Shown here: positions 2,887 to 31,501 of the stretch, piece by piece | Layout: each line of letters begins with the position of its first letter | How positions within the stretch are numbered: position 1 is the stretch's first letter | DNA from: a virus | Virus record (IMG/VR): IMGVR_UViG_3300023174_000460 | Location: 1 to 31,501 of that record | Reading direction: 5' to 3' (one strand) | Length of the DNA: 31,501 bases | Translations under genes and position numbers: made by a program | The notes under the pieces: model-generated | Seen by the model: only the letters and a program-made list of their open reading frames with translations | Database searches by the model: none | What the model was told of the DNA's origin: nothing

Positions 2887-3411
2887 GTGACCTGTATTGC
2901 CGTTGTAAAACATGAAGACAAGATTTATATGGCAGGTGATCGAGGTGCCTCAGATGATGGAACAATCCTAGCACTTGATGCACCAAAAGTTTGGAAGATA
3001 GGTCCCTATCTTATTGGATATGCAGGATCTATGGACGGAGAAAGAATCCGCTACAACTTTAAACCATCTGCCCCAATACTAAAAGATACTGACAAGCACA
3101 TGCAAACAAAGTTTATTAAAGAACTAAAAGAATTTTATAATGAGTTTTGGGTTGACACATCCAAAGATGGCGACCTTGGTTTAATTATTGCAATTCGTGG
3201 CAACATCTATGAACATAGTTCTGCTGATATGTCTTTATCTAAATACACACTTCCATACCTTGCTATGGGCTCTGGAGCAGAGTATGCTTACGGGGTTTTA
3301 TATGCAACAGATAAGCAAAAAAATGCAAGGAATAGAGTAATGCAAGCAGTAAATGCTGCTATCAAATTTAACCCATCTTGCATGGGTCCAGTTGACATTG
3401 TCAGTCTTTAG
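2887..3411 (+). CDS. Proteasome beta/HslV-like Ntn hydrolase
   Basis: Starts at GTG behind GGAAAGGG. After Met removal the protein begins with Thr, and Asp falls at mature position 17 (AGDRGAS) and Lys at 33 (APKVWKIG). These are the catalytic Thr1, Asp17 and Lys33 of proteasome beta subunits and HslV. Later blocks also fit: YLIGYAGS, GDLGLIIAIRG, AMGSGAEYAYG and the C-terminal NPSCMGPVDIV. At 174 residues it is close to HslV in size, with no propeptide. No partner ATPase is seen in the window. It may form a small peptidase ring acting on host or phage proteins, or plug into the host Mpa/ARC system; substrate and partner are unknown. Transcribed from the strong promoter at 2824. Confidence 0.8.
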   Translation: MTCIAVVKHEDKIYMAGDRGASDDGTILALDAPKVWKIGPYLIGYAGSMDGERIRYNFKPSAPILKDTDKHMQTKFIKELKEFYNEFWVDTSKDGDLGLIIAIRGNIYEHSSADMSLSKYTLPYLAMGSGAEYAYGVLYATDKQKNARNRVMQAVNAAIKFNPSCMGPVDIVSL

Positions 3412-9883: not shown

Positions 9884-10725
9884 TGAAAACTATATTTGTA
9901 CATTTTTGGGGATACAAAAGCAAAGAATTGCCAGAGGCAGTCAATGCTCTTATATCAAACCAAAGTGGTCAAAACAAAGTTATTGTTTCCGTATACGATC
10001 AGGTAAATGTTTCTAGAAAAGAAAAGTTTAACTCTGATTTTTATGAGCATGTCAAATGGGACAGGATAAACTCAAGTTACACCTTTTTAAATGATTCTGT
10101 AAATTCTGCAGATACAGACTTTTTTATGTATGTAGATGGGGCAATTTATTTTCAACCAGGATGGGATCTTGAGTTGGTAATGGGTCATGGTGGCAGAGAT
10201 GTTATTATTTCTGGCAGTGCTGGAATACATTTTCAAAAAGAGTCAAATTTTTATCCACCATATAAAAGTTTTGAGTCATCAACTGCTACGATAACAAACT
10301 GGATAAGCCATGATTTTATATTCATGGATACACAGTTATTCAGAAAGTTTCCAGATATTTCTATGCTAAAGTACATAGGGCTAGAAGACATATTTTCTTT
10401 GTACGCAGCAGAGTTAGATATAAGGGTTCAATCAATACCTTCAGCATGGTGCAAAAGAATAGATGGCGGAATATTTAGCGCAGACTATATCCCTTTTTCT
10501 ATAAAGCACAACTACGATAAGGTTATAGATATATACAAACAAAAGAACAATGAGTTCTTTGATGGCAGGTATTGTGTGGAAAGGCTGTCTTCCCTAGTAG
10601 GGTTTGACTTTTCTACCCTAAACTATCTTCCATATGCACATAATGATATTGTTTATGATCCAGACATGGAGATAGACAACATCTCTGCCGAAAGATTTTC
10701 ACAAAATATAAGAAGTATAGGATAG
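9883..10725 (+). CDS. GT60-like GT-A glycosyltransferase
   Basis: 280 residues. The N-terminus (TIFVHFWGYKSKELPEAVNA, then VIVSVYDQVN) and the middle MYVDGAIYFQPGWDLEL resemble the nucleotide-sugar domain and DxD-like/PGWD block of GT60 transferases. Known GT60 enzymes add GlcNAc to hydroxyproline of Skp1 or to mucin-type proteins. It sits directly between a 2OG oxygenase and a prolyl-4-hydroxylase-like gene, which strengthens the idea of hydroxylate-then-glycosylate. Donor sugar and acceptor are not determinable from sequence. Confidence 0.65.
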   Translation: MKTIFVHFWGYKSKELPEAVNALISNQSGQNKVIVSVYDQVNVSRKEKFNSDFYEHVKWDRINSSYTFLNDSVNSADTDFFMYVDGAIYFQPGWDLELVMGHGGRDVIISGSAGIHFQKESNFYPPYKSFESSTATITNWISHDFIFMDTQLFRKFPDISMLKYIGLEDIFSLYAAELDIRVQSIPSAWCKRIDGGIFSADYIPFSIKHNYDKVIDIYKQKNNEFFDGRYCVERLSSLVGFDFSTLNYLPYAHNDIVYDPDMEIDNISAERFSQNIRSIG

Positions 10726-14332: not shown

Positions 14333-15094
14333 ATGATTATTCAGATTATTGGTCTACCTGGTTCTGGCAAAACAGAATTATCAAAGGCCCTAAAAGAGCG
14401 TATTAATGCTATTCATCTAAATGCAGATGATGTTCGTGCAACCGTAAATTCAGATTTAGGGTTTAGTCCTGAAGACAGGATTGAGCAAGCACGACGCATG
14501 GGTGACATGGCAAGACTTATTGCTAAGCAGGGTGTAGCACCAGTAATTGTAGATTTTGTATGTCCAACAGATTTAACTCGTGCTGCTTTTGGCAAGCCAG
14601 ACATTTTGGTATTCATGAACACGATTGAAGAAGGAAGATTTGAAGACACCAACAAGATGTTTGAAATGCCAACAAACTATGACATTGCTTTTATAAGCCA
14701 TGAATGGGATGCAAATGAAAAGGCATCGGTAATCATTAATCAGTTTAACCTACATGACTGGTCTGCACCTACAACTCTTATGCTGGGTAGGTACCAGCCA
14801 TGGCACGAGGGGCACCACGCCCTTTACAAGGAGGCTGGTAAGAGAACTGACCAAGTGCTTCTTGGAGTCCGCAATACCTACAACACAAGCGAAAAGGATC
14901 CTCTTAAATTTGATCAGGTTAAAGAGTATATTTCCAGAGATAAATTCATGGATGATGCATTAGTACTAAGACTACCTAACATTACTAACATTGTTTACGG
15001 TAGAGATGTAGGATACAAAATTGAACAAGTAGATTTGGGGGCAGACATTCATGCTATTAGCGCTACTCAAAAACGTAAAGAACTGGGTATATGA
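14333..15094 (+). CDS. APS-kinase-like / nucleotidyltransferase fusion
   Basis: 253 residues in two domains. Residues 1-140: P-loop GLPGSGKTELSKAL, LNADDVRATVNSDLGFSPEDR and ARLIAKQGVAPVIVDFVCP, a close match to adenylylsulfate kinase CysC. Residues 145-253: MLGRYQPWHEGHHALYKEA (HxGH cytidylyltransferase motif), GVRNTY and ISATQKRKEL, typical of NMN/phosphopantetheine-type adenylyltransferases. Candidate jobs are activation of sulfate or a sugar/nucleoside phosphate followed by nucleotidyl transfer, or an NAD-salvage-like pair in reversed domain order to NadR. A sulfotransferase-like gene at 19510 offers a possible link through PAPS. Confidence 0.8.
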   Translation: MIIQIIGLPGSGKTELSKALKERINAIHLNADDVRATVNSDLGFSPEDRIEQARRMGDMARLIAKQGVAPVIVDFVCPTDLTRAAFGKPDILVFMNTIEEGRFEDTNKMFEMPTNYDIAFISHEWDANEKASVIINQFNLHDWSAPTTLMLGRYQPWHEGHHALYKEAGKRTDQVLLGVRNTYNTSEKDPLKFDQVKEYISRDKFMDDALVLRLPNITNIVYGRDVGYKIEQVDLGADIHAISATQKRKELGI

Positions 15095-17549: not shown

Positions 17550-17831
17550 ATGAAGCATGACTGGAAAGATGATGCTGCTTGCCTAGAGTATGACACTAAT
17601 CTGTTCTTTGATAAGTACGAAGAAGATGAGTTACTCAGGCCTGCAATTGACAAACTATGTTCTGAATGTCCAGTCTCCAAAATCTGTTTTGCTGTTGGTG
17701 TCTCGCAAAAAGAGTGGGGTATATGGGGTGGAATATATTTAGAAGGTGGAGAATTGTCTAAGGAATTTAGCAAACATAAGACAAGAAATGATTGGGCAAA
17801 TACATGGAAGTATTTGACTATGGAGAACTAA
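17550..17831 (+). CDS. WhiB-like iron-sulfur regulator
   Basis: 93 residues with Cys11, Cys37, Cys40 and Cys46 (C-x25-C-xx-C-x5-C) and EWGIWGG, the G(V/I)WGG turn. Wbl proteins carry a 4Fe-4S cluster and bind the sigma-A region 4 of actinobacteria. The short C-terminus lacks the usual strongly basic DNA-binding stretch, so it may act mainly on sigma factor. Mycobacteriophage TM4 WhiB is a precedent for a phage copy that represses a host whiB. Confidence 0.93.
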   Translation: MKHDWKDDAACLEYDTNLFFDKYEEDELLRPAIDKLCSECPVSKICFAVGVSQKEWGIWGGIYLEGGELSKEFSKHKTRNDWANTWKYLTMEN

Positions 17832-20404: not shown

Positions 20405-20809
20405 ATGGTAAAAACAGCACTGGATCTTTTCAATGATCCATTTTTCAATACCTTCTCAAATTTTCAGAAGGTAACAACAACAACAAACTATCCACCTTAC
20501 AACCAGATTAAACTAAATGATAAAGAATATATTCTTTCATTTGCTTTGGCTGGATTCTCTAAGGATGATGTCTCAGTATCGCTAGACAATCGCAAACTTA
20601 CAATCAAGGGCGAGAAGCAGGATGCTGAGTTACCAGAGGGTGCGGAGTATCTACATAAGGGCATTGCTGCTCGCAAGTTTACTGATATCTTCACTCTTCC
20701 TGAGTTTGTTGAGGTAGTTGGGGCTGAATTTAAGGATGGTATCTTAGATATCAGACTTGAAAAGCAGATCCCAGAAGACAAACTGCCAAAAACAATAGCA
20801 ATTAAGTAG
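20405..20809 (+). CDS. Hsp20/alpha-crystallin small heat-shock protein
   Basis: 134 residues. Alpha-crystallin domain: YILSFALAGFSKDDVSVSLD, RKLTIKGEK, AARKFTDIFTLPEFVEV, AEFKDGILDIRLEKQIPE; the C-terminal IAI matches the I-x-I anchor. An ATP-independent holdase chaperone, also common in cyanophages. Own promoter and leader. Confidence 0.93.
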   Translation: MVKTALDLFNDPFFNTFSNFQKVTTTTNYPPYNQIKLNDKEYILSFALAGFSKDDVSVSLDNRKLTIKGEKQDAELPEGAEYLHKGIAARKFTDIFTLPEFVEVVGAEFKDGILDIRLEKQIPEDKLPKTIAIK

Positions 20810-26103: not shown

Positions 26104-26327
26104 TAGTATCCACCAAGACATTCGTTGCGTGTGTGAAACAATCTAATCTTTGTCAATATTTTGCGGGACGGACCAAAAAGATCTTCCTTACAAGTAGAGC
26201 AAGTATAAGACCATTCACCGCTAAACCAGTCATGGACATAGCCCTTAGAGTTGGCATATTTTTTAGTTACAAAGGTTTGAAATGGATCAGGAATCTCAAG
26301 ATTTCTTAGCACACCAAATCCAATCAT
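26103..26327 (-). CDS. Small CxxC protein
   Basis: Up to 74 residues (ATG 26327; a GTG at 26312 is an alternative). GYVHDWFSGEWSYTCSTCKED has a CxxC. Overlaps the 36-residue gene upstream. No family recognised. Confidence 0.55.
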   Translation of the reverse strand: MIGFGVLRNLEIPDPFQTFVTKKYANSKGYVHDWFSGEWSYTCSTCKEDLFGPSRKILTKIRLFHTRNECLGGY

Positions 26328-26406
26328 CTGTCATAGTCTGATGTGTCTCCCAAAACAAGGGATCTTTTTTGTGCATCCCACACTTTACGCATTGCTCAGG
26401 TTTCAT
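26296..26406 (-). CDS. 36-residue Cys-rich microprotein
   Basis: MKPEQCVKCGMHKKDPLF... DDWIWCAKKS: a CxxC and a third Cys. Starts in an ATGA overlap with the membrane protein upstream. Likely zinc-binding. Confidence 0.6.
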   Translation of the reverse strand: MKPEQCVKCGMHKKDPLFWETHQTMTDDWIWCAKKS

Positions 26407-26633
26407 TCTTCTCGCTTCCAATGTCTATATGATTTAATATATGTGGCTGCATAGGCAAGGGATGCAAAGATAAAACCATATTGTTGGGTAGTTATGGCAT
26501 AAAACATCCAAAGGCATTCATTGAATAAAAGTACGAACCATCCCCAAATGGTCTTACGACCAACGAAGAAGATGCCTGTGACTCCAATAACAGCGAGCAC
26601 CCAAGAGGCATAGTCTTTTATAAATAGTTCCAT
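26403..26633 (-). CDS. PnuC-like small membrane protein
   Basis: 76 residues, three membrane segments, with WGWFVLLFNECLWMFYAITT and YIKSYRHWKRE. The N...LW..YA and final Trp pattern recalls one repeat of PnuC nicotinamide riboside transporters. Leaderless from a consensus promoter. Confidence 0.6.
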   Translation of the reverse strand: MELFIKDYASWVLAVIGVTGIFFVGRKTIWGWFVLLFNECLWMFYAITTQQYGFIFASLAYAATYIKSYRHWKREE

Positions 26634-26639
26634 ATATAC

Positions 26640-26668
26640 AGTATACCTTAAGTTGAAGGTTTGGTCAA
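26640..26668 (-). promoter_or_regulatory. Consensus leaderless promoter
   Basis: TTGACC (26663-26668), 17 bp, TATACT (26640-26645), six bases, ATG 26633. The -35 lies in the end of the preceding gene. Confidence 0.85.
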
Positions 26669-26767
26669 GTCATGGGTCTTTGTATGGTTATATAAGGTTT
26701 GGGAGGCCATACTAGACCTAGACTCTATTTCTTTCTTGCAGATAGGGCAAATAACGATTTTTGCCAT
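26648..26767 (-). CDS. 39-residue C2H2-type zinc microprotein
   Basis: MAKIVICPICKKEIESRSSM... LYNHTKTH: CxxC and HxxxH spaced like a classical zinc finger. Follows the 48-residue gene by 3 bases. Confidence 0.7.
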   Translation of the reverse strand: MAKIVICPICKKEIESRSSMASQTLYNHTKTHDLTKPST

Positions 26768-26770
26768 ATA

Positions 26771-26917
26771 TTATTTTAGTTGAGATACGAACTTAGAAGC
26801 CATCTTCAAACCCTTAACCAGTCCATCATGGTAGTCTTGGTTCTTGATAACCTTAGCAGTATCCCAAATACGGTAGGATTCTTTGTTTAATAACTCTGAG
26901 ATCTCTTCGTTTGTCAT
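26771..26917 (-). CDS. 48-residue helical protein
   Basis: MTNEEISELLNKESYRIWDT... MASKFVSQLK. No family recognised. Start defined by a full-consensus promoter six bases upstream. Confidence 0.7.
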   Translation of the reverse strand: MTNEEISELLNKESYRIWDTAKVIKNQDYHDGLVKGLKMASKFVSQLK

Positions 26918-26923
26918 ATATCA

Positions 26924-26952
26924 AGTATATCAAAATCTGCACGGTATGTCAA
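26924..26952 (-). promoter_or_regulatory. Full-consensus leaderless promoter
   Basis: TTGACA (26947-26952), 17 bp, TATACT (26924-26929), six bases, ATG 26917. Confidence 0.9.
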
Positions 26953-26953
26953 G

Positions 26954-26959
26954 TATAAT
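26954..26959 (+). promoter_or_regulatory. -10 box for a leaderless start
   Basis: TATAAT, six bases before ATG 26966; overlaps the -35 region of the divergent promoter. Confidence 0.7.
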
Positions 26960-26965
26960 AGAGTA

Positions 26966-27277
26966 ATGACCCTATTGTACATCCTATACAGCCCATTACA
27001 CAAGGCTATTAAGATAGGGATATCAGACATATCAGGCAAGAGGTTTGCAAGCCATAGGACCAAGGGTTGGATCTTAATAAAGTATTGGTCATTTTCCGAA
27101 CGGGATAAAGCGAGAACAGTAGAAACCCTAGTACTAAGAACACTAAGGGCAAAGCATGGTTATTTTCTGGATAAGGCGGATATGCCACAAGGGGGCTATA
27201 CGGAGACATTTGATGCTAGTAAGATCACTAGACGAGGTTTGATCCGTATGGTCAACAAGGCTATAAAGGAGTCTTGA
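26966..27277 (+). CDS. GIY-YIG/T5orf172-like nuclease
   Basis: 103 residues. LYILYSPLHKAIKIGIS (the two strands of GIY-YIG, with KIG), GKRFASHRTKGW (Arg), ARTVETLVLR (catalytic Glu) and GGYTETFD. This order fits T5orf172/MUG113-type GIY-YIG proteins. The only plus-strand gene in the right block, with its own promoter, consistent with a mobile homing-type insertion. Confidence 0.75.
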   Translation: MTLLYILYSPLHKAIKIGISDISGKRFASHRTKGWILIKYWSFSERDKARTVETLVLRTLRAKHGYFLDKADMPQGGYTETFDASKITRRGLIRMVNKAIKES

Positions 27278-27416
27278 TCCCCTGGCATTTTGGACATTGC
27301 TTAGTGGGGTTTGCAGTTTCATAGGATACTTGGAACATACCCCCACAGTCAAAGCATAGGACATCTAACATTAATTTTGCAATAAACTTACCATAGGATG
27401 ATTCGAATCTATCCAT
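27261..27416 (-). CDS. 51-residue zinc ribbon protein
   Basis: MDRFESSYGKFIAKLMLDVL then CFDCGGMF and QCPKCQG: two CxxC pairs. Converges with and overlaps the GIY-YIG gene by 17 bases; TAATG link to the upstream gene. Confidence 0.7.
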   Translation of the reverse strand: MDRFESSYGKFIAKLMLDVLCFDCGGMFQVSYETANPTKQCPKCQGIKTPL

Positions 27417-27604
27417 TACTTACAAGCCAGACAGTAGTATGGAACACGAAGATTAGTGTGATGTGTGTAGATGGTTTGAGCACACTTAGAACAGTTTACA
27501 TGAACCATATCTGGATCTGAAGTAGGCATTGAGAGTTTGAAGTTCTTTGTGTAATATACCTTAGTGGCATACCATGTGATTAGTATTAGAGTTATTGTTA
27601 TCAT
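27416..27604 (-). CDS. Membrane-tethered zinc ribbon
   Basis: 62 residues: N-terminal membrane helix (ITLILITWYATKVYY), then HVNCSKCAQTIYTHH and YYCLACK. Two CxxC pairs on the cytoplasmic or outer face. Leaderless start predicted. Confidence 0.7.
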   Translation of the reverse strand: MITITLILITWYATKVYYTKNFKLSMPTSDPDMVHVNCSKCAQTIYTHHTNLRVPYYCLACK

Positions 27605-27610
27605 AATACT

Positions 27611-27616
27611 ATTCTA
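27611..27616 (-). promoter_or_regulatory. -10 box for a leaderless start
   Basis: TAGAAT, six bases before ATG 27604. Confidence 0.55.
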
Positions 27617-27629
27617 TCACATTGAGTGG

Positions 27630-27700
27630 CTTCAGGTGAAGGAATCGGACCTTCATTATCAGTTTCGGAAACTGCTCTACGACCATTATAGGAACTTGAA
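27630..27700 (-). tRNA. Divergent tRNA-Arg (CCG), CCA end encoded
   Basis: T stem GAAGG/CCTTC, D stem CTAT/GTAG, anticodon stem CAGT/ACTG with loop TTCCGAA (anticodon CCG). Acceptor TTCAAGT/ACCTGAA has one A-C mismatch, and pair 27-43 is mismatched. G73 is followed by CCA (27627-27629), unlike the other tRNAs here. Could be degenerate. Confidence 0.65.
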
Positions 27701-27762
27701 CTACTTAATCAGTGTAGCATAGGTTTTGATGTAAAAAGTTATCCACAATAGTTATTCACAGG

Positions 27763-27882
27763 CTATTCTATTGTATCAAGATTAACAGGTTGGACATCAT
27801 CATCCATAGCCCCACATAGGGTACAGGTTACTTGACCATCAAGGTCTAGTTCATAGTTGCATCCATATTTTGTACATGTCAT
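27763..27882 (-). CDS. 39-residue zinc ribbon protein
   Basis: MTCTKYGCNYELDLDGQVTC then TLCGAMDDD: Cys pairs as a rubredoxin-like knuckle. ATGA overlap with the upstream gene. Confidence 0.65.
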   Translation of the reverse strand: MTCTKYGCNYELDLDGQVTCTLCGAMDDDVQPVNLDTIE

Positions 27883-28040
27883 GGTATATACTCGATTGAG
27901 GTTAGACAAACCACCTTCGTAATGTTCATATGTGGTTCTTCTCTCATAGCCATTTGCTTGGCTTCTTCTTCAGTTGAGGCAAACATTTCTAGATCGAATG
28001 CTCTGTCGTAATCTAACAATGAGATTTTATATATGTTCAT
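27879..28040 (-). CDS. 53-residue protein
   Basis: MNIYKISLLDYDRAFDLEMF, then STEEEAKQMAMRE: strand then helix, like small DUF domains that sense or bind nucleic acid. No family recognised. Leaderless from a consensus promoter beside DnaA boxes. Confidence 0.7.
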   Translation of the reverse strand: MNIYKISLLDYDRAFDLEMFASTEEEAKQMAMREEPHMNITKVVCLTSIEYIP

Positions 28041-28046
28041 ACTTCA

Positions 28047-28075
28047 AGTATACACTGGTTTGGATAGGATGTCAA
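28047..28075 (-). promoter_or_regulatory. Full-consensus leaderless promoter beside DnaA boxes
   Basis: TTGACA (28070-28075), 17 bp, TATACT (28047-28052), six bases, ATG 28040. The first box of the right cluster starts 7 bases beyond the -35, so DnaA binding could affect it. Confidence 0.9.
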
Positions 28076-28092
28076 CGAAAGTTATCCACAGA

Positions 28093-28131
28093 TTCTTAGC
28101 CTTTACTTAAGGTTTCTTAGCCTTTACTTAA
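28093..28131 (+). repeat. 18-bp direct repeat (iteron-like)
   Basis: TTCTTAGCCTTTACTTAA at 28093-28110 and 28114-28131, identical, 21 bp apart start to start (two helical turns), between DnaA boxes. Confidence 0.9.
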
Positions 28132-28192
28132 TACTTATCCACAGGTTTATCCACAGATTAATCTTACTGATTATTTAATTAGATAGTCTAGA

Positions 28193-28219
28193 AGTGGAGT
28201 GAAGTGGAGGATAGTGGAG
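28193..28219 (+). repeat. AGTGGAG triplet at 10-bp spacing
   Basis: AGTGGAG at 28193, 28203 and 28213: one helical turn apart, so three sites on one DNA face. Confidence 0.8.
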
Positions 28220-28445
28220 CATTGAGCATTTATAGAAGGGCGTCGTAATCTTTGACGGCCAAACCTCCCTATCCCCAAACCTTCAAACCTTCTTACCACA
28301 TATTCCCGATATTGTCAAACCTTCTTTCCTATAGTAAGGTTTGGGCATTATACATGCAAAACCATGGTTTGTCAAGTCCTTCTTTGCATGAATATGCCCA
28401 TAAATTTTATATGGATTTTATCCGAATTTGATCAGAAAATAAAAG

Positions 28446-28473
28446 AAACCTTTATAAAATTATATAAAGGTTT
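28446..28473. repeat. Palindrome with 11-bp arms
   Basis: AAACCTTTATA (28446-28456), six-base spacer, TATAAAGGTTT (28463-28473). The right arm contains an octamer. Confidence 0.85.
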
Positions 28474-28569
28474 GATAAAGTTTTAGAAATCAGGAGAAAA
28501 GGTTTGTCTATGTTTTACTACTAGTGGTTTGATATGTCTTCTCTATCCCCTGGCAAAATCGCCTGGTAC

Positions 28570-28606
28570 GGGGAAAAAATTTAGTCCTTCGTAATCTTAT
28601 TTTGAG
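28570..28606 (+). repeat. 37-bp repeat, copy 1
   Basis: Begins GGGGAAAA and ends CGTAATCTTATTTTGAG; overlaps the last codons of the 28581-28796 gene. Confidence 0.85.
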
Positions 28607-28796
28607 GATCTTGAAAACGTCCATCCCCTGGGCCGTAAACTTTGTTGGCAGAAAAATCGGGGGTAAAGGAAAAGAACCTAGACAAACCTATAGTATGAGT
28701 AATAGATACAAAACCATTCCACATGTTATCTGAGAAAGACTGATATTGTTTAGGATATCTTTTTGCATAATCTGCAAAGTGTGATCTTGGACTCAT
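28581..28796 (-). CDS. Unknown protein in the origin region
   Basis: 71 residues from ATG 28796 (leaderless pattern), not from a farther upstream start. MSPRSHFADYAKRYPKQYQS, then THTIGLSRFFSFTPDF. Resembles no family known to me. Its 3' end lies in repeat copy 1. Confidence 0.6.
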   Translation of the reverse strand: MSPRSHFADYAKRYPKQYQSFSDNMWNGFVSITHTIGLSRFFSFTPDFSANKVYGPGDGRFQDPQNKITKD

Positions 28797-28802
28797 ATGA
28801 TT

Positions 28803-28808
28803 ATTATA
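28803..28808 (-). promoter_or_regulatory. -10 box for a leaderless start
   Basis: TATAAT, six bases before ATG 28796. Confidence 0.7.
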
Positions 28809-28862
28809 ACACCGAATACAAAGGTTTGACAAATAAGGTTTGATATGGTATAAGCCATGAAT

Positions 28863-28899
28863 GGGGAAAAGATTTGATGCTACGTAATCTTATTTTGAG
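28863..28899 (+). repeat. 37-bp repeat, copy 2
   Basis: GGGGAAAAGATTTGATGC at its start, CGTAATCTTATTTTGAG at its end; same length as copy 1. Confidence 0.85.
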
Positions 28900-28920
28900 A
28901 AATATGGTTTGTCCACGATT

Positions 28921-28957
28921 GGGGAAAAGAAAAGCCTCTTCGTAATATAGTTCTGAC
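28921..28957 (+). repeat. 37-bp repeat, copy 3 (diverged)
   Basis: Starts GGGGAAAAGAAAAG; the second half is CGTAATATAGTTCTGAC. Copy 2 to copy 3 is 58 bp start to start. Confidence 0.75.
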
Positions 28958-29050
28958 AAATATAAGGTTTGAAAGGTTTGTCCGATATGTCCAATTCGAC
29001 GTCCCATAACCCCAGGCTTTTGTCAAGCCCAGGGATCAAGGATAGTCTTG

Positions 29051-29362
29051 TTACTCTTCTTTGTCTGGTGTTGAGTTCTTCTTCTTGTTATGAGCAAACA
29101 CTAAGATAGCGCCAAGGTTCTTATCTGTAAGAACAGAGTCAATTTCTTCCTCAGTAACATTGATTAGTTCTAGAAACATCTTGAATGTTTCTGTAATCAT
29201 CTCTTCACCGATAGGGGTTAGGTCTTTGATCAAACCTTCTGCCACCATGTACGCCATTGGACAACCTAGGTCGTTGTAGTCCATAAATGCTGAGAAGTCT
29301 TCGTCATTACGGAACTCAATCCATAACTGACCAATGACTCCAGTCTTATCTGCAAAATTCAT
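29051..29362 (-). CDS. Unknown acidic protein
   Basis: 103 residues: IGQLWIEFRNDEDFSAFMDY, helical centre with EEEIDSVLTD, basic-acidic tail (HNKKKNSTPDKEE). Immediately follows the preceding gene (stop then ATG, no gap). No family recognised. Confidence 0.75.
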   Translation of the reverse strand: MNFADKTGVIGQLWIEFRNDEDFSAFMDYNDLGCPMAYMVAEGLIKDLTPIGEEMITETFKMFLELINVTEEEIDSVLTDKNLGAILVFAHNKKKNSTPDKEE

Positions 29363-29587
29363 TTATAATTTACCTTTCATCTCTAACATAAGTTTATCAT
29401 ACTCTTCTTGTGCTGTCAAGGCTAAAACATCAAACCTATGAAATACAATCAAAGGTAGATTTCTAACGAGATAGTATCCAACTCGTTCTAGGTCTATGGA
29501 GAAATCTTCTGTTAGAAGTTTTGCCAACTGTTCTGCTTTTCTTGATTCTTTATTGTGTTGTGCCGTTCTACGAACTGAATACGCCAT
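29363..29587 (-). CDS. Unknown helical protein
   Basis: 74 residues: MAYSVRRTAQHNKESRKAEQ, then FSIDLERVGYYLVRNLPLIV. Strong AGGAGGG before the ATG and a -10 box 17 bases upstream, one of the few leadered starts on this strand. Confidence 0.75.
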   Translation of the reverse strand: MAYSVRRTAQHNKESRKAEQLAKLLTEDFSIDLERVGYYLVRNLPLIVFHRFDVLALTAQEEYDKLMLEMKGKL

Positions 29588-29604
29588 AGTCCCTCCTCTA
29601 TTCC

Positions 29605-29610
29605 ATTATA
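29605..29610 (-). promoter_or_regulatory. -10 box with leader and ribosome binding site
   Basis: TATAAT on the minus strand; start of transcription near 29598, then AGGAGGG before ATG 29587. Confidence 0.65.
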
Positions 29611-29656
29611 CCGCAAAAGTTAGGGGGAGGCAAGCCCCACGCTTACCTCCACCCTT

Positions 29657-29685
29657 AGACATAGTCTGACCCTAGATCTATGTCT
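29657..29685. repeat. 8-bp inverted repeat at a gene end
   Basis: AGACATAG (29657-29664) and CTATGTCT (29678-29685), 13-base loop, starting at the stop of the minus-strand gene. Probably a transcript-end hairpin, without a T tract. Confidence 0.55.
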
Positions 29686-30034
29686 GCTCAATTAAAACTG
29701 GTAGATATGCATCCATAAATTTATCAAATGGTACAGAGACCCTATCAGTAACAGTATTAGTAGTGAAGTCGATGAGGACTGTAGGGTCACCTAGGTCCAG
29801 GCCGTCGTTATCAATTGCGAAGATACCAAACCCTGTCTCCTCTAGAACGCTGTCCTGCATAAGATAACTAATGATCATGCGGGTGCCATATGCTGAATCT
29901 CCTAGACGCGGCTTGGCATGGTTTAAAGCCATGGCTAGGTCCCGCTGCCACTCAGTCTCGCCCCAATGACTGTATAGTGCAACCATAGGGCCCTGCTCAC
30001 TGTCTTTGAATACGTAGTTAATCCGTGCTCCCAT
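29678..30034 (-). CDS. Unknown phage protein
   Basis: 118 residues from ATG 30034 (TAATG with the upstream gene). MGARINYVFKDSEQGPMVAL then SHWGETEWQRDLAMAL and RLGDSAYGTRMIISYLM. Similar proteins occur in actinophage early regions; function unknown. Confidence 0.75.
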   Translation of the reverse strand: MGARINYVFKDSEQGPMVALYSHWGETEWQRDLAMALNHAKPRLGDSAYGTRMIISYLMQDSVLEETGFGIFAIDNDGLDLGDPTVLIDFTTNTVTDRVSVPFDKFMDAYLPVLIEQT

Positions 30035-30180
30035 TACTCTTCTTCCTTCCAAGATACAATTGATAGTTGATTTAATATTTCTCTGCAGAGGTCCTCTTCA
30101 TTATCTGATTCAGCCTCATATTTAAAATTCATATAGTCGCCTGTTGGTTCAAAGATTACTTCAACTTGATACTCGTTCAT
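30034..30180 (-). CDS. 48-residue protein
   Basis: MNEYQVEVIFEPTGDYMNFK..., strand then helix; ends VSWKEEE. ATGA overlap upstream and TAATG downstream. No family recognised. Confidence 0.7.
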   Translation of the reverse strand: MNEYQVEVIFEPTGDYMNFKYEAESDNEEDLCREILNQLSIVSWKEEE

Positions 30181-30695
30181 AGTTGAATAGTTCTTTCTCC
30201 AGTGGTATGAAATACATACTCATCATCATTTGTTTCTAGGTCATCTGTTGGATTTTCGTTCATTGGGTCTCCTTTTTCTATTTGGGTCATTTCTTCAAGT
30301 GTAGCACAATTTGGGCATTTTTCCAAATCGGCTTCCTGAAACTTATCTCTGATTATATTATCAGGGTCCTCAAACTCTGCTCCACAGTTCTCACAGTAGA
30401 ACCAGTTAAAACTAACTCTGACTTGAATGGTCACATTATCTGGGCAAGGTTTATCAGTGATAAAATAACCAAGCCTATTAACAAAGCCCCAACCAGACCA
30501 GATATAACTTCCACCGTCGTCTCCGTCCCCATACATCCATATCTTATTAGGTTCTTGCTGCTTTACAAACTCTACCTCATCGCCATAGGTCTCAAACATC
30601 TCTCCGTCAAAGGAGGCATTTGTATCTATATGGTTTTTGATTGGCTTATAGATAGCGGCCCACTCATCAAGGTCCATTTCAATAAAGTTACTCAC
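30177..30695 (-). CDS. Zinc-ribbon protein, acidic
   Basis: 172 residues from GTG, with GGGAG 7 bases upstream. Trp/Gly-rich N-terminal half (GDGDDGGSYIWSGWGFVNRL), then FYCENCGAEFED and KCPNCATLEE, two CxxC pairs, and an acidic tail. No family recognised. Confidence 0.75.
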   Translation of the reverse strand: MSNFIEMDLDEWAAIYKPIKNHIDTNASFDGEMFETYGDEVEFVKQQEPNKIWMYGDGDDGGSYIWSGWGFVNRLGYFITDKPCPDNVTIQVRVSFNWFYCENCGAEFEDPDNIIRDKFQEADLEKCPNCATLEEMTQIEKGDPMNENPTDDLETNDDEYVFHTTGERTIQL

Positions 30696-30978
30696 CTAGA
30701 ATCTCCCTACGGTTTTTAACATCTTCCTTGGCAAAAGCAATAGCATAAGTTAAAGAATATACCTCAGTAAGGGCGTCTAGGTACCCAGTGGCCTCTGTAC
30801 GAGCCATAGAATCCATAGCCTCACCTGATTCATCTTCAATTGCCTGTGCCTCCGCAAGTTCTTGCTCAGCAATTAGCATGAGGTTTTTTAGTTCCCCGTG
30901 CATGATGTCAAGGCCCGTTACTCCAGCATTGACCATGCGTTGCAAATGGGGCGGGAGACCAATATCTTCTGCATTCAT
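30688..30978 (-). CDS. Unknown helical protein
   Basis: 96 residues: MNAEDIGLPPHLQRMVNAGV, long helix LMLIAEQELAEAQAIEDESG. Overlaps its neighbours. No family recognised. Confidence 0.7.
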   Translation of the reverse strand: MNAEDIGLPPHLQRMVNAGVTGLDIMHGELKNLMLIAEQELAEAQAIEDESGEAMDSMARTEATGYLDALTEVYSLTYAIAFAKEDVKNRREILGE

Positions 30979-31211
30979 TATTCATACCTTTCGTTAGTAG
31001 AGTTCATTATATCAGTAGCCACTGACAACAAATGCCTGGTTGCTATAATCTGTCCATTTAAAGATATGTCTTCAATCTCTAATGACTGATAGTCCTTTGA
31101 ATCCATGTTATATTCAAACTGAGACATTTCCTCTTGAACTAGTTCTGAATCTTGTTCTAAACTAATTAGATGTAACTTCATATACTCTAAAAAGTGTGAT
31201 GATTTAGTCAT
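30978..31211 (-). CDS. Unknown helical protein
   Basis: 77 residues from ATG 31211 (in-frame ATG 31223 possible). FLEYMKLHLISLEQDSELVQ, acidic centre, coiled-coil-like. TAATG overlap with the next gene. Confidence 0.65.
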   Translation of the reverse strand: MTKSSHFLEYMKLHLISLEQDSELVQEEMSQFEYNMDSKDYQSLEIEDISLNGQIIATRHLLSVATDIMNSTNERYE

Positions 31212-31347
31212 TAGGTATACCATATTCCTTCAACATCATAGAAAAGTATTTATCACGCTTTTCATTGTCCCACCCTTTTTCCATGGCGGTAGTTGAAACT
31301 GCTTCTTTTATTTGAGTTATCAACATAACCATTTGTATAGCATTCAT
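31204..31347 (-). CDS. 47-residue protein
   Basis: MNAIQMVMLITQIKEAVSTT... KEYGIPND. TAATG overlap with the gene upstream. No family recognised. Confidence 0.65.
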   Translation of the reverse strand: MNAIQMVMLITQIKEAVSTTAMEKGWDNEKRDKYFSMMLKEYGIPND

Positions 31348-31496
31348 TAGTCAAAGTACCCTTCTGCCCATAGTCCTTGCAAGAAACTAGATACTTCATC
31401 TAGCCCCTTAGCAATACCTGAATTACCCAATTGCTCAGAAGCAATGTTTACATTAGCAATCATCATATTTAAATCAGATAGTTCATAACCTAGCAT
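31347..31496 (-). CDS. Unknown protein, possibly continuing past the window
   Basis: 49 residues from ATG 31496: MLGYELSDLNMMIANVNIAS... WAEGYFD. The frame remains open to the edge, so the start may lie beyond it. Confidence 0.55.
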   Translation of the reverse strand: MLGYELSDLNMMIANVNIASEQLGNSGIAKGLDEVSSFLQGLWAEGYFD

Positions 31497-31501
31497 TATT
31501 A

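Follow-up and report, generated by a model that had tools for sequence, protein, structure and literature searches.

Iteron plasmid origins such as those of P1 (oriR), F and RK2 combine DnaA boxes with an AT-rich stretch and, next to these, iterons that share one orientation. How replication starts in large tailed phages of Actinobacteria that carry their own replisome is poorly known. In bacterial chromosomes, the basal unwinding system (BUS) of oriC (in B. subtilis and others) shows features that recur at the locus described here, namely tandem DnaA boxes 3 bp apart, AT-rich DNA and at least three 3'-NAN-5' trinucleotides (DnaA-trios) nearby, on the strand opposite to the one on which the boxes are read (PMC8287927, PMC10201434). 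The published search for such modules requires tandem boxes no more than 3 bp apart and, within 16 bp, three or more 3'-NAN-5' trinucleotides, and a proximal 3'-GAT-5' trio is a frequency preference and not a rule of that search (PMC8287927). E. coli DnaA prefers box pairs 2–3 bp apart (PMC11317965). As for phages, the terminal-repeat region of T5, which carries repeats, palindromes and DnaA boxes, has been discussed as a signal that stops injection (PMC13250531), and the literature searched, which was covered in part, describes no BUS module in a phage.

The window, i.e. the whole stretch of DNA that was analysed, is one viral contig of 31.5 kb with 37.2% GC overall. An earlier note on this DNA had pointed to four exact TTATCCACA boxes and one variant in a single orientation, flanking two small genes and accompanied by iteron-like repeats and AT-rich DNA. 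This description is accurate. All five boxes lie on the plus strand within 27739–28155: an outer exact box at 27739–27747, the variant TTATTCACA with one mismatch at 27752–27760, a third exact box at 28082–28090, and, 53 bp further downstream, the tandem pair TTATCCACA-GGT-TTATCCACA at 28135–28155 (boxes at 28135 and 28147). The two small genes are there as well, as minus-strand ORFs at 27763–27909 and 27879–28040. No other exact TTATCCACA is present in the 31.5-kb window. The 4 exact boxes compare with a mean of 0.5 in 400 dinucleotide shuffles of the window, and not one of these shuffles (0/400) contained even two exact boxes within 420 bp, where the window has four. Between the third box and the pair there is an 18-nt direct repeat, TTCTTAGCCTTTACTTAA, in two plus-strand copies (28093 and 28114, together 28093–28131); it is also found in L004 with one change and is not general across relatives. 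From the last box to about 29010 the DNA is largely noncoding and contains several repeat families. The iteron-like repeats are real, and three kinds can be distinguished (GTGGAG, TCGTAAT and AAGGTTTG). The AT-richness applies to 28156–28192, with 21.6% GC, but not to the wider noncoding region, which at 35.6% GC is not notably AT-rich.

The core of this cluster is smaller and more structured than the earlier note had reported. It occupies 28135–28219 and is arranged in the order of two boxes 3 bp apart, TTACTG in AT-rich DNA, and three GTGGAG repeats. The AT-rich stretch at 28156–28192 carries TTACTG at 28164–28169 and six T-centred triplets read on the plus strand, corresponding to DnaA-trio-like NAN trinucleotides on the minus strand; the GTGGAG repeats follow on the plus strand at 28194–28219 in 10-bp steps (28194, 28204 and 28214). 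We recruited eight relatives by means of the neighbouring ORF 29051–29362 (63–92% identity), and all eight have the core, with the two TTATCCACA boxes exactly 12 bp apart and, in seven, a further exact box 33–75 bp upstream of the pair. A pattern scan of IMG/VR found the core in at least 119 viral contigs, so conservation in sister phages, which had been named as a check, is strongly borne out. A second scan, which required the pair and the GTGGAG repeats and did not require TTACTG, was combined with the earlier loci and gave 110 distinct cores, which are related by descent, so that the counts below are not independent. The spacer of the box pair is GGT in 93 of the 110 cores, and the two bases AG ahead of the first box have frequencies of 0.98 and 0.91. 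TTACTG lies exactly 8 bases past the second box in 102 of the 110, although the scan was blind to it, and GTGGA-type repeats at 10- and 10-bp steps are present in 94. Moreover, 87 of 108 cores have an extra box in the same orientation within 300 bp upstream, while none (0/108) has one in the opposite orientation.

We then compared the core with the published BUS search, allowing at most two mismatches to the DnaA box and a second box no more than 3 bp away, and reading the 3'-NAN-5' trios as T-centred triplets on the plus strand. Two perfect boxes 3 bp apart are found in the window and in the scanned cores, while the spacing differs in two divergent relatives. Runs of at least three T-centred triplets are found in 107 of the 110 cores, the window having 6. 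Taken by itself, the trio rule says little in DNA this rich in AT; the weight falls on the excess over shuffled sequences and on the fixed position. In the 110 cores the mean T-centred run is 6.15, where dinucleotide shuffles of this stretch give 3.20 (sd 0.12). Among 17 divergent representatives the mean is 4.82, reached by 0 of 1000 shuffles, which average 3.11 (sd 0.30). T stands at 72% of the triplet centres, against 43% and 20% at the other two positions. No trio-like signal was seen for A-centred runs (2.3) or on the upstream side of the boxes (2.3). The proximal 3'-GAT-5', the commonest bacterial form, is not the form conserved here; the conserved triplets are 3'-AAT-5' and 3'-GAC-5' (TTA and CTG on the plus strand). 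Unlike the bacterial BUS, the phage element has an A/T-rich, not a GC-rich, gap from the second box to the trios, and it is followed by GTGGAG and TCGTAAT arrays. A chromosomal BUS is sited in an origin beside dnaA or a similar marker, whereas the phage element has no dnaA nearby and belongs to a phage genome without detectable DnaA, so it would work like a BUS and would not be a chromosomal one.

Downstream of the core, a plus-strand TCGTAAT iteron lies next to it at 28243–28249. Among 87 loci, the first kb downstream of the pair contains 379 copies of TCGTAAT in the orientation of the boxes and 2 in the reverse one, mostly 4–5 per locus, compared with 0.19 and 0.03 per kb elsewhere. Many of them have GGGG and an A/T run 16–19 bases upstream. 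A longer 26-nt form, GGGGAAAA-N12-CGTAAT, has three plus-strand copies in the window (28570–28595, 28863–28888 and 28921–28946) and is confined to this region in the window and in the relatives G001 and G007. GTGGA within GTGGAG is complementary to TCCAC, the core of the box, and the GTGGAG array may thus consist of weak inverted DnaA contacts or be a site for a phage protein. The locus has the DnaA boxes, AT-rich stretch and direct iterons of an iteron plasmid origin. It differs from P1 oriR, F and RK2 in its iteron sequence, in having no recognised rep gene adjacent, and in belonging to a phage that encodes its own polymerase and helicase; no Rep family match was obtained among the neighbouring small ORFs scanned, which are a minority of the genes.

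The third kind of repeat, AAGGTTTG, is found on both strands at 26656, 26694, 28276–28973 and 29231 of the window and in relatives. It is dense in the noncoding region (241 on the plus and 178 on the minus strand, about 6 being expected on each) and is present in other early intergenic DNA too. We rejected it as an iteron or part of the origin core, because it occurs on both strands, is also seen beyond the region and becomes sparse in distant relatives. It is possibly the operator of a phage regulator.

Exactly one full core was found in each of 13 contigs of 91–117 kb, near-full in length and picked because they carry the element. For an independent sample we drew contigs via the major capsid protein. 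All five of these that reach at least 90 kb contain the element; three match the core with 0–1 mismatch, and two (G026 and G028) have divergent versions that include TTACTG and clustered TCGTAAT sites. The shorter capsid-selected fragments gave no match, which is not informative. Further tandem pairs were noticed about 9–13 kb downstream of the core, in G007 at 3327–3347 and in G006 (oriented) at 10332 and 12108; two of these share TTATCCACATAGTTATCCACAGGGCACGT, and they are without trios.

A looser core pattern had six hits among 84,980 bacterial and archaeal genomes, and of these L192 alone (CANGYR010000020.1) contained the full core. L192 is a contig of a phage of this same family within a Chitinophagaceae MAG, where it was probably mis-binned. 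On this basis we rejected the idea that the element is a copy of a host oriC. With the pattern used, no prophage copy was found in the 84,980 genomes, and nothing points to the plasmid-like stage that had been suggested earlier. A blastn search of 26300–31501 against 50,697 phage records gave no match at 1e-5, and with a looser limit the hits of the 141-bp core were chiefly to the box pair of T5-like and of Streptomyces phages.

The use of host DnaA boxes by a tailed phage had been called unusual, which does not hold, as the tandem pair is present in hundreds of records of T5-like phages and in the Loccivirinae. A 141-bp query from the T5-like terminal-repeat region matched 619 records. T5-like phages (Demerecviridae) have one or two tandem TTATCCACA pairs, with the boxes of a pair 12 bp apart, in noncoding terminal-repeat DNA, and the pair is followed by CTACTG and an AT-rich stretch, analogous to TTACTG here. 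They differ from the present family by a one-base shift, by CTACTG in place of TTACTG and by having no TCGTAAT iterons, as well as in the location within a long terminal repeat, the proposed injection-stop role and an unrelated host phylum. The Loccivirinae of Streptomyces (Faust, Wakanda, BillNye and Annadreamy) are the nearest isolates by DNA polymerase. Their box pair is exact in Faust and Annadreamy and has the first box one base off in Wakanda; a lone box is found at a distance of about 255 bp, the DNA there being largely noncoding, one box is inverted in Wakanda and BillNye, and TTCGTAA sites cluster near the boxes in these same two phages. In contrast to the present family, no trio-like stretch and no GTGGAG array were seen in them, and their GC content is about 50–53%.

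The DnaE-type Pol III alpha subunit of the relative G001 is 52–55% identical to those of its closest isolates, the Streptomyces Loccivirinae (Stanwilliamsviridae). Other products of G001 are RecA, a RuvC-like resolvase and a Cas4-like exonuclease; G007 encodes a ribonucleotide reductase. A DnaB-family helicase was found in 10 of 10 relatives, and the DnaE polymerase in the one relative examined (G001). The C-terminal domain of DnaA was detected in none of the 10, although the same search was positive in 10 control bacteria. These results support the earlier proposal of a candidate origin with host-dependent initiation. The window contains a WhiB gene (17550–17831), which has been taken as a mark of actinobacterial phages (PMC6802176). 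From this gene and the 37% GC we infer that the host is likely a low-GC freshwater actinobacterium.

A small leaderless gene of 71 aa (MSPRSHFADY...) lies within the region on the minus strand at 28581–28796, behind TTGTCA-N18-TATAAT-N6-ATG. Many of 87 relatives have a gene that begins near this position with a motif resembling M-S-P-R-H-F, but the remainder of these proteins falls into several unlike types. Only by its position is the product a candidate iteron-binding protein or helicase loader. The sole known RNA family match was a tRNA at 27630–27700, and the element itself matched no Rfam family.

Taken as a whole, the stretch from 28082 to about 28990 is probably where a large tailed phage infecting freshwater actinobacteria begins its replication, an origin opened by the host DnaA. 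Because the element is built like the start site of a bacterial chromosome, these viruses probably borrow the host DnaA despite having their own replication machinery. Host DnaA would bind the tandem box pair with the help of the upstream boxes of the same orientation, and a DnaA filament would then extend onto the adjacent DnaA-trio-like strand and open the AT-rich stretch, as in the BUS. The phage DnaB-family helicase and DnaE polymerase would enter at the opened stretch. The 10-bp GTGGAG array may serve as a second docking array, either by offering DnaA weak inverted contacts or by binding a phage protein, and the one-orientation TCGTAAT iterons probably bind a putative phage initiator or helicase loader, which would add specificity. 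A possible but more tentative proposal, for which the chances appear close to balanced, is that this actinophage family has joined a BUS module opened by host DnaA to 10-bp repeats and one-way TCGTAAT iterons for a putative phage initiator, and that T5-like phages reached the layout of box pair plus trio independently. What appears to be new is that a bacterial-type BUS is joined to iterons of a phage, that this arrangement is strongly conserved, and that T5 offers a parallel.

Several observations weigh against the origin reading. The Loccivirinae, as the nearest isolates, keep the boxes without a trio-like stretch, and about four further boxes per genome lie beyond the element. The helicase of the phage could load without DnaA. 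By analogy, the role discussed for the boxes of T5, an injection-stop signal and not an origin (PMC13250531), would also count against it. GC skew, which had been proposed as a check, tracks gene strand without a sign change at the element and gives no support for an origin, and we dropped it as evidence.

Boxes outside the element lead to the idea that they titrate host DnaA, as E. coli datA does, and switch off host replication instead of forming an origin. The 13 long contigs contain 103 boxes, compared with 8 for a reversed control pattern, and 55 of the 103 are outside the element; pairs spaced 3 bp apart bind DnaA best (PMC11317965), and some relatives have further box pairs elsewhere. 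Such a sink, however, would have no need of a TTACTG placed at constant distance, of GTGGAG repeats in 10-bp steps, of TCGTAAT iterons in one direction or of one composite locus per genome, and we consider it unlikely as the explanation of the element, although titration by the boxes outside could be an added role. Slightly less likely is the explanation that DnaA and phage regulators bind the region to time the early minus-strand genes. The strong predicted promoter of the leaderless gene lies within the region, AAGGTTTG sites are found here and in other intergenic regions, and DnaA regulates transcription too in E. coli (PMC11317965). Yet over 500 bp separate that promoter from the core, in which inspection showed no obvious promoter, and the trio-like periodicity and the AT-rich stretch are left unexplained.

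It is very unlikely that the repeats and boxes halt DNA entry so that early genes act first, as proposed for T5. Comparable pairs are located in the T5-like terminal repeat, a region described as a stop signal (PMC13250531), and the pair of the Streptomyces relatives is 7–8 kb from the right genome end; but the latter is outside their terminal repeat of 0.8–2.3 kb, these phages are not known to deliver their DNA in two steps, and a box-trio unwinding layout is not called for by such a signal. Least credible of all is a structured element, a hairpin for priming or packaging that would form in single-stranded DNA or RNA when the GTGGA repeats pair with the boxes, to which they are complementary. 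Predicted DNA folds pair the two boxes with two GTGGA repeats in the window (z -2.6) and L042 (z -2.1), but for a third relative the fold does not exceed that of shuffled sequence (z -0.3). We set this inconsistent hairpin (2 of 3 sequences folded) aside, and no Rfam family matches here.

If the origin reading is right, the locus offers a precisely bounded putative core of about 90 bp, and with it a testable origin in a phage family that is widespread in fresh water. The unwinding module of DnaA boxes and trios would then be at work outside chromosomes, and phage replication would be tied to the supply of host DnaA. The hundred-plus natural variants are a ready-made mutational scan of DnaA-trio function.

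Elsewhere on the plus strand of the window, we observed a 774-aa protein without a PHROG match and with a long Ala/Gln/Glu-rich repeat region (29–2353), a small heat-shock-like protein recognised by eye (20405–20809), and a kinase-nucleotidyltransferase-like protein with matches to APS kinase and cytidylyltransferase (14333–15094).
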